From an archaeon (GTDB lineage: Archaea > Thermoproteota > Nitrososphaeria > Nitrososphaerales > Gagatemarchaeaceae): a stretch of DNA of 64,000 nt. Position 1 is the first letter of the stretch, and every line of letters starts with the position of its first letter. Made by a program: the position numbers and the translations under genes. Location: positions 62,001 through 126,000 of the forward strand of contig JAJYMY010000002.1 of NCBI GenBank assembly GCA_021786575.1, given 5' to 3'. Shown here piece by piece: positions 7,759 through 9,721 of this stretch. Under the pieces are notes generated by a model. That model was not told where the DNA came from and did not search any database. It worked only from the letters and a program-made list of their open reading frames with translations.

Positions 7759-8078
7759 GCGGTGGGTAGGGCCGGGATGGTAGCCGTATCCCAGAGTGCT
7801 GAAACCGGCTTCACGCAGAGGCCAGCAACCTCCGGGTAAATCCATCTTCCTCGTCACCCGCGCCGGGCAGGGAAGACGAACTCACGCCGGGGTGGGCGGT
7901 CATGAGGGGCAGCCCTCTCGAAGGAGAGGGCCTGACTCTTGATTGCCGAACCGGGCGAGGTCCGGGAGGGAGCAGCCCTATGGCGACGTGGCCACGCTGC
8001 CTCGTCTACGTGGGGGATTCCCAGTCCGGTGAGATGGGGGCGGAGAGCGGTGGAGAACTCCGGATGAGCTACCGCCGC
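7759..8078 (+). ncRNA. Signal recognition particle 7S RNA
   Basis: The SRP54-binding helix 8 is plain at 7945-7984: the asymmetric loop AGGTCCGGGAGGGAGCAGCC matches the universal SRP RNA signature, closed by GCCGAACCGGGC upstream and TATGGC downstream. A helix-6-like hairpin (GCCCTCTC...GAGAGGGC, about 7911-7933) lies upstream. The ends pair as archaeal helix 1: GCGG and GGTAG at 7759-7769 with CTACC and CCGC at 8069-8078. A TATA-like GTTAAAAG at 7728-7734 inside the preceding gene predicts a 5' end near 7756-7760. Length about 320 nt fits archaeal 7S RNA. The ends are inferred to within a few bases. Confidence 0.9.
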
Positions 8079-8083
8079 TCAAG

Positions 8084-8090
8084 CTTTTAT
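8084..8090 (+). promoter_or_regulatory. TATA box of tRNA-Ser
   Basis: TTTTATC lies about 30 bp upstream of the mature 5' end at 8117, the usual distance for archaeal tRNA promoters. It starts six bases after the inferred SRP RNA 3' end. Confidence 0.55.
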
Positions 8091-8131
8091 CGGCCAGGAT
8101 TCGGCTTGCTCCCCGCGCAGGGGTAGCCTAG

Positions 8132-8147
8132 AGTCCAAGACGGGGAG
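8132..8147 (+). other. tRNA-Ser intron 1 (D-loop, 15/16), 16 nt
   Basis: Removal restores the D-stem GCCT/AGGC and an A14-G15...GG D-loop. The fold is a relaxed bulge-helix-bulge: inner helix GTC (8133-8135) with GAC (8139-8141), central pairs CCT (8127-8129) with GGG (8142-8144). The fourth central pair is missing and the second bulge is four bases. A TAG/GAG near-repeat lets the cut slide by up to two bases; this placement fits the fold best. Confidence 0.75.
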
Positions 8148-8162
8148 CCTGGTAAGGCGCAG

Positions 8163-8176
8163 CCACGCGGGCGCAA
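8163..8176 (+). other. tRNA-Ser intron 2 (anticodon stem, 29/30), 14 nt
   Basis: Removal joins CAG to GC and makes a perfect anticodon stem with GCCTG. The junctions form a clear bulge-helix-bulge: outer helix TAAG (8153-8156) with CTTG (8178-8181), central helix GCGC (8157-8160) with GCGC (8171-8174), bulges AG^C (8161-8163) and AA^G (8175-8177). The intron itself can form only a minimal closing loop. Confidence 0.85.
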
Positions 8177-8218
8177 GCTTGCTAAGCCTGTGTCTCTAAC
8201 GGGACTCGTGGGTTCGAA

Positions 8219-8244
8219 ACCCGCCTGACAAGGACGGGCGAAAG
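8219..8244 (+). other. tRNA-Ser intron 3 (T-loop, 59/60), 26 nt
   Basis: Canonical bulge-helix-bulge: outer helix is the T-stem GTGGG/CCCAC, central helix TTCG (8213-8216) with CGAA (8239-8242), inner helix CCCG (8220-8223) with CGGG (8235-8238), bulges AA^A (8217-8219) and AG^T (8243-8245). Excision yields the standard seven-base T-loop TTCGAAT. Confidence 0.9.
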
Positions 8245-8263
8245 TCCCACCCCCTGCGCCTGT

Positions 8264-9541
8264 CTAGAGATTCTTCCCTGCGTACTTCGCCCTTGGACCA
8301 AGCTCTTCCTCTATCCGGAGGAGTTCGTTGTATTTGGCTATCCTTTCTCCTCTCGCGGGAGCGCCTGTCTTGATGAATTCAGATCCAAACGCCGTCGCAA
8401 GATGAGCGATGAACGGGTCCTCTGTCTCACCTGACCGGTGAGAAACCACCACGGTCCAACCAGCGCCTCGTGTAAGTTCGACCGCATCTTCCGTCTCCGA
8501 CACTGTGCCAACCTGGTTCAGCTTGATAAGGACGGCATTGGTCGCCTTTGCTTGGATCCCTTTCTTGATGCGCTGCACATTGGTGACGTATATGTCGTCT
8601 CCAATAACTTTCGTCCTGGCGCCGAGCCTCTTGGTTATCGAAGAAAACGAGTCAAACGCTTCTTCATCAAAGGGGTCCTCTAGGGTGAGAAGTCCGAACT
8701 CATCGCGCAGGGATGAGTAGAAGTCCTCTAACGCGTCGTGTCCCATCGACTTTCCATCTATATTGTACCGTCCCGTCTTCTCGTCGAAGAACTCGGATGC
8801 TGCGGCATCTATACCTAACCTCACTTCCGCCTCAGCGTGCCCAGATTGTGAGATGGCTTCCCATATGGCCCGGAGGGCATCGCGAGTCGACTTCAAGGGT
8901 GGCGCGAATCCTCCTTCGTCGCCAACGTTGATGGCGCTCCTTCCGTATTTTTCGACGAGGACTGTCTTCAAGGACTGATAGACTTCCGAGCCCACCCGTA
9001 TCGCTTCTGAGCAGGAGTCTGCATCTACCGGTTCTATGAGGAACTCCTGCACGGCGAGATTGTTACCCGCATGCTCCCCACCGTTTATGACGTTCATCAT
9101 GGGAACCGGGAGCGTGTAAGATGTCCCTCCTCTAAGTTTCTCGAACAGGCTGACCCCATCACCATTAGCTGCAGCCCTGGCGGCTGCCATGGAAACGGCA
9201 AGCATCGCGTTGGCCCCCAGATTTCCCTTGTTCGGTGTTCCGTCGAGTCGGATCATCACTTCGTCAATCCGTCTTTGATCAGCAGGGTCGATGTCCCTGA
9301 GCCTGGGGCCCAGCACATGCGCTACGTTGTACACCGCCTTAGAGACTCCCTTCCCATGGAACCGATTCGGGTCCCCGTCTCTCAGTTCGAGCGACTCGTG
9401 ACTTCCAGTCGACGCCCCAGATGGGACGCTCGCCCTCCCGCTCGCGATTGTAGTCAACACTTCTGCTTCCACGGTCGGGTTTCCTCTCGAGTCGAGCACC
9501 TCCCTCGAGGTGACGGAGACTATCTTCGATGGCCTGGGCAT
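8264..9541 (-). CDS. eno: Enolase (2-phosphoglycerate dehydratase)
   Basis: 425 residues, normal length. It interconverts 2-phosphoglycerate and phosphoenolpyruvate in the cytosol with two Mg2+. The N-terminal REVLDSRGNPTVEAEV and capping-loop SGASTG are plain, as are metal-ligand segments (IDAAASEF, LTLEDPFDEEAFD, VIGDDIYVTN) and the catalytic LIKLNQVGT lysine region near the C-terminus, followed by SHRSGETED. Start ATG at 9541. In this genome it would take the 2-phosphoglycerate made by the glycerate kinase at 44.9-46.2 kb. It ends only 5 bp from tRNA-Ser and faces it. Confidence 0.97.
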   Translation of the reverse strand: MPRPSKIVSVTSREVLDSRGNPTVEAEVLTTIASGRASVPSGASTGSHESLELRDGDPNRFHGKGVSKAVYNVAHVLGPRLRDIDPADQRRIDEVMIRLDGTPNKGNLGANAMLAVSMAAARAAANGDGVSLFEKLRGGTSYTLPVPMMNVINGGEHAGNNLAVQEFLIEPVDADSCSEAIRVGSEVYQSLKTVLVEKYGRSAINVGDEGGFAPPLKSTRDALRAIWEAISQSGHAEAEVRLGIDAAASEFFDEKTGRYNIDGKSMGHDALEDFYSSLRDEFGLLTLEDPFDEEAFDSFSSITKRLGARTKVIGDDIYVTNVQRIKKGIQAKATNAVLIKLNQVGTVSETEDAVELTRGAGWTVVVSHRSGETEDPFIAHLATAFGSEFIKTGAPARGERIAKYNELLRIEEELGPRAKYAGKNL

Positions 9542-9630: not shown

Positions 9631-9721
9631 GGGCCGGTGGTCTAGCCTGGTTATGACGTCGCCCTTACACGGCGAAGCGTTCCGTGCGCCAAAGTCGGCG
9701 GTCCAACTCCGCCCCGGCCCA
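9631..9721 (+). tRNA. tRNA-Val(UAC) with one intron
   Basis: Acceptor GGGCCGG (9631-9637) pairs with CCGGCCC (9714-9720), discriminator A 9721. D-arm GTC...GAC; anticodon stem TCGCC/GGCGA with loop CTTACAC, anticodon TAC (9666-9668). T-stem GGCGG/CCGCC has the loop TCCAACT, where T55 is replaced by C. A 16-nt intron interrupts the variable region; without it the variable loop is the normal five bases AAGTC. A TATA-like TTAATA near 9603 fits the start. CCA is not encoded. Confidence 0.92.
9677..9692 (+). other. tRNA-Val intron (variable loop, 44/45), 16 nt
   Basis: Bulge-helix-bulge: central helix GGCG (9671-9674) with CGCC (9687-9690), bulges AA^G (9675-9677) and AA^A (9691-9693), a weak inner helix 9678-9680 with 9684-9686, and an outer CA/GT pair. 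Cutting here leaves the five-base variable loop expected for a class I tRNA. Confidence 0.85.

Follow-up and report, generated by a model that had tools for sequence, protein, structure and literature searches.

The tRNA-Ser(GCU) locus

The window (the whole 64,000-nt stretch of DNA analysed, from a 755-kb, two-contig archaeal MAG that is ~49% complete) carries a tRNA-Ser(GCU) gene at 8117-8258, between an SRP RNA gene and a convergent enolase gene. Three introns interrupt the gene, and the seven segments account for the interval letter for letter (exon and intron lengths of 15-16-15-14-42-26-14 nt, in order). The features are as follows, with the basis for each intron and exon.

7760..8074, + strand: SRP RNA gene, upstream neighbour (RF01857, 115.8 bits)
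8085..8090, + strand: TATA-like box at -32, TTTTAT (22/22 orthologues tabulated have TTTT(T)A between -34 and -31)
8117..8258, + strand: tRNA-Ser(GCU) gene with three introns
8117..8131, + strand: exon 1, tRNA positions 1-15, GCAGGGGTAGCCTAG (identical in all 17 three-intron orthologues; 7/7 pairing with exon 4)
8132..8147, + strand: intron 1, 16 nt, D-loop 15/16, relaxed HBh' (intron-less orthologues; motif across orthologues)
8148..8162, + strand: exon 2, positions 16-29, CCTGGTAAGGCGCAG (orthologue comparison)
8163..8176, + strand: intron 2, 14 nt, anticodon stem 29/30, hBH (intron-less orthologues; central helix GCGC/GCGC)
8177..8218, + strand: exon 3, positions 30-59, with anticodon GCU at 8181-8183 and a long variable arm (orthologues; ARAGORN)
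8219..8244, + strand: intron 3, 26 nt, T-loop 59/60, full hBHBh' (intron-less orthologues; compensatory changes; minimum-energy fold)
8245..8258, + strand: exon 4, positions 60-73, TCCCACCCCCTGCG, CCA not encoded (orthologues; ARAGORN)
8264..9541, - strand: enolase gene, convergent neighbour (TIGR01060, 554 bits)

A sequence-only reading of the window had proposed this identity, with introns of 16, 14, and 26 nt whose removal would leave a class II tRNA. The spliced product of 8117-8258, GCAGGGGTAGCCTAGCCTGGTAAGGCGCAGGCTTGCTAAGCCTGTGTCTCTAACGGGACTCGTGGGTTCGAATCCCACCCCCTGCG, is indeed a complete 86-nt class II tRNA-Ser, which ARAGORN calls as tRNA-Ser(gct) with a 7/7 acceptor stem; as judged from sequence, the interval is thus confirmed as a canonical tRNA-Ser(GCU) once the three introns are removed. 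ARAGORN made no call on the unspliced gene, nor after partial splicing (only intron 1, only intron 3, introns 1 and 2, or introns 1 and 3 removed), and with introns 2 and 3 removed and intron 1 left in place, it called a tRNA whose acceptor and D-arm were damaged. When run on the 64,000-nt window, ARAGORN reported the neighbouring tRNA-Val and nothing at 8117-8258. The unspliced gene has a partial match of 18.1 bits to RF00005, below the 29-bit cut-off, and so goes unreported. Because the unspliced gene is silent in ARAGORN and falls below the RF00005 cut-off, ordinary finders easily miss it, as the sequence-only reading had anticipated. The same lack of a call would suit a decaying pseudogene, in which insertions have broken the tRNA, Ser(GCU) being supplied by another gene; the evidence bearing on this alternative is given below.

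Conservation among orthologues

Across 151 genomes of the order, a search followed by parsing of the loci recovered 23 orthologues of the tRNA-Ser(GCU) gene; the SRP RNA gene adjoins 23/23 of these and the enolase gene 22/23. All three introns are present in 17/23, all within the same genus. These include the single-contig complete genome G005, with the same neighbours, and G002, which is public contig JASHOZ010000033.1 of Nitrososphaerales archaeon JOPF036 (same gene sequence); given this congener, the host is not a member of Thermoproteales. That the gene structure is an assembly or binning artefact of a single MAG might be suspected from a genome that is 49% complete, but the same structure and neighbours recur in 16 further genomes, among them complete G005 and the public contig, which makes this a negligible prospect.

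Among the three-intron orthologues, mean pairwise identity is 99-100% for the exons, vs. 90% for intron 1 and 71% for intron 2 (equal-length copies), and intron 3 is anywhere between 17 and 52 nt long; the 40 nt upstream of the gene are 50% identical (ungapped). Because 23 orthologous loci keep the exons while the introns vary, the three-intron structure is not a product of chance. The (near-)invariance of the exons across 17 genomes while the introns vary also argues against a pseudogene, as does the position of the insertions exactly at endonuclease-type motifs, and a search of the complete congeners G005 and G015 found no other Ser(GCU) gene; we consider a pseudogene highly improbable.

Natural alleles lacking introns

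Intron content differs among the remaining orthologues: those of G023, G003, and G116 keep introns 1 and 2 and lack intron 3; G016 has intron 2 alone, without introns 1 and 3; G106 has intron 3 alone, without introns 1 and 2; and the G057 orthologue is intron-free. Where an intron is absent, the exons meet exactly at 8131/8148 (G016, G106, G057), 8162/8177 (G106, G057), and 8218/8245 (G003, G016, G023, G116, G057), which are the junctions predicted from the window for sites 15/16, 29/30, and 59/60. This exact joining, read from the genomic alleles, is the strongest support short of RNA for the junctions. At intron 1, a repeated AG creates a 2-nt ambiguity at the DNA level, by which the mature product is unaffected, and the ambiguity is resolved to 8131/8148 by the register of the splicing motif (see below).

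The intron-free G057 gene differs from the spliced tRNA at 6/86 positions; judging from sequence pairing, the differences at 3/83 and 47/58 read as paired changes in the acceptor stem and variable arm, respectively. In the sister genus (G121, G129, G147), the Ser(GCU) gene has one anticodon-loop intron instead, which we infer to sit at 32/33. An enolase tree, built to order the gains and losses, has 4/17 inner branches well supported; on this poorly resolved tree, the minimum numbers of changes for introns 1, 2, and 3 are 3, 2, and 4, respectively. Because of the poor resolution, we do not claim a direction of change (gain vs. loss). An origin of intron 3 by duplication of the T-arm was considered, prompted by the G010 intron, which starts with the exon's own TCCCACCCCC; it was set aside, given that intron 3 starts with unrelated sequence in several orthologues and that the inner helix alone could explain the likeness.

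Splicing motifs

A bulge-helix-bulge (BHB) motif or a relaxed form of it is found at every exon-intron junction: full in intron 3, hBH in intron 2, and a relaxed (and weak) HBh' in intron 1. Introns 2 and 3 had both been described as full BHBs with four-base central helices; the central helices hold for both introns, and the full motif for intron 3 only. Intron 3 has outer (GTGGG/CCCAC), central (TTCG/CGAA), and inner (CCCG/CGGG) helices, with bulges AA|A and AG|T, and the BHB appears unprompted in the minimum-energy fold of the isolated stretch. Across all copies of this intron, 70/72 central-helix cells are paired (35.6 +/- 4.1 in shuffles), and there are compensatory changes: CG, GC, and AT or GT replace one another at inner pairs 1 and 2, as do TA and TG at central pairs 1 and 2. 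In intron 2, the central helix GCGC/GCGC has 4/4 pairs in 20/20 introns counted (80/80; shuffles 29.2 +/- 4.4), and the outer helix and bulges are present; because the inner helix has 0-2 base pairs, this intron is assigned to hBH rather than to the full BHB.

The relaxed motif attributed to intron 1 is upheld as HBh', with 3/4 pairs in the central helix (4/4 in G003), an inner helix GTC/GAC, and no outer helix. In the window alone, 24% of shuffles reach 3/4 central pairs, and slid registers pair nearly as well; the motif is weak by itself, and the case for intron 1 depends on orthologue comparison. An unlikely alternative is that the gene is correctly identified and that cleavage at intron 1 falls as much as 2 nt from 8131/8148, or proceeds by a non-BHB process, given that the TAG|..GAG repeat leaves the DNA junction ambiguous and that most orthologues have 3/4 central pairs. 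Against this, bulges of AG|A and AG|C, C-G, C-G, and T-G pairing, and an inner helix (at least 3 bp long in all orthologues but one) occur together only in the 8131/8148 register, and the 15/16 introns of tRNA-Asn and tRNA-Ile share the arrangement; moreover, the identical mature product results from all three registers. The two other registers permitted by the AG repeat were tried and gave no better motif.

Gene copy number and splicing machinery

The sequence-only reading had left room for an intron-free second copy of tRNA-Ser(GCU). The search for further copies used RF00005 hits, the string TTGCTAA, and a gapped anticodon-to-T-arm pattern. In the host's own assembly (~49% complete), TTGCTAA occurs in a tRNA context at the 8117-8258 locus only; the gapped pattern finds one Ser(GCU) tRNA per genome in 13 genomes of the genus, including complete G005 and G015. 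No second Ser(GCU) gene, intron-free or other, was found in the host's assembly or in these two complete congeners, and the three-intron gene is probably the only Ser(GCU) gene of the host. A candidate second copy, called as Ser(gct) by ARAGORN when long introns were allowed (L012), was rejected; its sequence reads as tRNA-Ile(GAU) with a D-loop intron.

Cleavage by EndA and ligation by RtcB are the established route of archaeal tRNA splicing. Two EndA paralogues (PF01974) are encoded in each of G005, G015, G003, and G057, one with the catalytic Tyr-His-Lys set and the other without the His (residues judged by eye). In the host's own assembly (~49% complete), only the non-catalytic (structural) kind was found. 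RtcB is encoded in the host genome (G000:C1:199215-200528, 564 bits) and in three relatives. The alpha2-beta2 type of EndA is tied to broad motif use (PMC4090602).

From these sequence data, the gene is very probably a functional, and probably the sole, tRNA-Ser(GCU) gene of a Nitrososphaerales archaeon, with three BHB-type introns that would be cut by EndA and exons that would be joined by RtcB. A pre-tRNA containing all three introns would be transcribed from its own TATA-like promoter, and each intron would present a BHB or relaxed form to a heterotetrameric (alpha2-beta2) EndA, which would cut both bulges per intron, at six sites in total. The exons would then be ligated by RtcB, a mechanism that is invoked here because it is established for archaeal tRNA splicing, and the mature tRNA-Ser(GCU) would read AGC/AGU codons. 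The introns themselves appear to be removable passengers, gained and lost singly within the genus.

Introns in other tRNA genes

Introns at the same sites are present in other tRNA genes of the host genome, in tRNA-Asn(GUU) and tRNA-Ile(GAU) at 15/16 and in tRNA-Ser(GGA) at 29/30 plus 37/38, and a tRNA-Ser of G126 has an apparent 59/60 intron (read by eye). At the sequence level, this suggests transposition between tRNA genes, by which the introns may have spread; convergence is also possible, because part of each intron (the short 3' strand) must pair with the exon. Transposition of tRNA introns has been proposed in Thermoproteales (Fujishima et al. 2010, as cited in PMC4033280), where, as here, different tRNA genes of a genome share similar introns at a common site. 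In the present case, the exon constrains the short 3' strand, so that convergence may account for the likeness. We hold tentatively, at somewhat less than even confidence, that this genus, which is without reverse gyrase, has had its own burst of tRNA intron spread, comparable to that in Thermoproteales, in which introns at recurrent sites (15/16, 29/30, 59/60, and the variable loop) moved from one tRNA gene to another.

Several further tRNA genes of the genus have unusual structures. The tRNA-Val(UAC) gene at 9631-9721 has a 16-nt variable-loop insertion which, taken as a 44/45 intron, has a 4/4 central helix GGCG/CGCC (by eye), and similar variable-loop insertions occur in the Ala(CGC), Ala(UGC), and Arg(CCG) genes of the host genome. 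A tRNA-Arg(UCG)-like gene (L024, G000:C1:182826-182907 with flanks) has a long D-loop insertion, perhaps two introns, and a variable-loop insertion, and is possibly another three-intron gene. A tRNA-Trp(CCA) gene (L025, G000:C1:54679-54752 with flanks) has a long canonical-site intron with C and D box-like strings. A guide RNA in the tRNA-Trp intron occurs in other archaea, and by analogy this intron may encode one.

Position 55 of tRNA is normally U. In several tRNA genes of the genus, the T-loop has TCC rather than TTC, and thus C at 55 (9631-9721; L009, L016, L148, L193, L198, L200, L206); there are three such genes in the host genome and 4/30 loci in G005/G015, plus the Ser(GCU) gene of G023. 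In the host genome, a tRNA 3' half is repeated ~7.5 kb apart (L018, G000:C2:130845; L021, G000:C2:138385), as if a mobile element had integrated at a tRNA 3' end. A 154-kb contig of the nearest relative carries five tandem tRNA-like genes (G015:C2:150895-151549; L198, L208), at least one of which has an odd T-loop, TTGGAGT; a plasmid, viral, or integrated-element origin is possible.

Lineage and relation to known systems

Reverse gyrase gave nothing over the cut-off, and amoA was not found, in the relatives searched; because neither was found, hyperthermophily and ammonia oxidation are both improbable for this lineage. The host is possibly a member of the Group I.1c Thaumarchaeota (Gagatemarchaeaceae, GTDB family UBA183, PMC10640624), with which the amoA and reverse gyrase results are consistent, without being diagnostic.

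Three-intron tRNA genes are known for tRNA-Glu(UUC) of Pyrobaculum calidifontis and tRNA-Pro(UGG) of P. islandicum (Sugahara et al. 2008, as cited in PMC4390854), and multi-intron tRNA genes come mostly from Pyrobaculum and Thermofilum (PMC3218864, PMC4390854). The view that three-intron genes are mainly a feature of Thermoproteales thus agrees with published accounts (PMC4390854, PMC4033280, PMC3218864). Like those of Thermoproteales, the gene described here is an archaeal tRNA gene interrupted by three BHB-type introns, but it is for another tRNA and from another lineage, with relatives that are without a full reverse gyrase, and the presence or absence of each intron can be traced within one genus. 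Some tRNA genes of Crenarchaeota and Thaumarchaeota hold multiple non-canonical introns, according to the available portion of the description of the tRNAscan-SE 2.0 models (PMC8450103); these Thaumarchaeota introns belong to the same broad lineage and intron class as those of the tRNA-Ser(GCU) gene, and that portion names neither a three-intron tRNA-Ser(GCU) nor this genus.

Caldiarchaeum subterraneum (PMC3293823) is likewise intron-rich and outside Thermoproteales, with introns in the D-, V-, and T-arms and gain among close relatives. There, the tRNA-Thr(GGU) of the population variants described has one or two introns, and a mobile element plays a part (PMC3293823), whereas here the variation, of up to three introns, is between species and the locus shows no sign of an element. 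In the literature searched, which was covered in part, no report was found of a three-intron tRNA gene in the Nitrososphaerales group. Three-intron archaeal tRNA genes and non-canonical introns of Thaumarchaeota are already known; the gene described here adds to them an unusually complete presence/absence series.

With this finding, three introns in one tRNA gene are seen beyond Thermoproteales, in a lineage that is apparently not hyperthermophilic. Because close relatives have or lack each intron separately at a single conserved locus, intron gain and loss are datable and testable for each site. In such genomes, an essential tRNA would be scored as missing by ordinary finders. The tRNA-Ser(GCU) locus is a clean natural record of tRNA introns coming and going and, if the genus has indeed had its own burst of intron spread, would constitute a stepwise 0, 1, 2, and 3-intron record of gain and loss at fixed sites.
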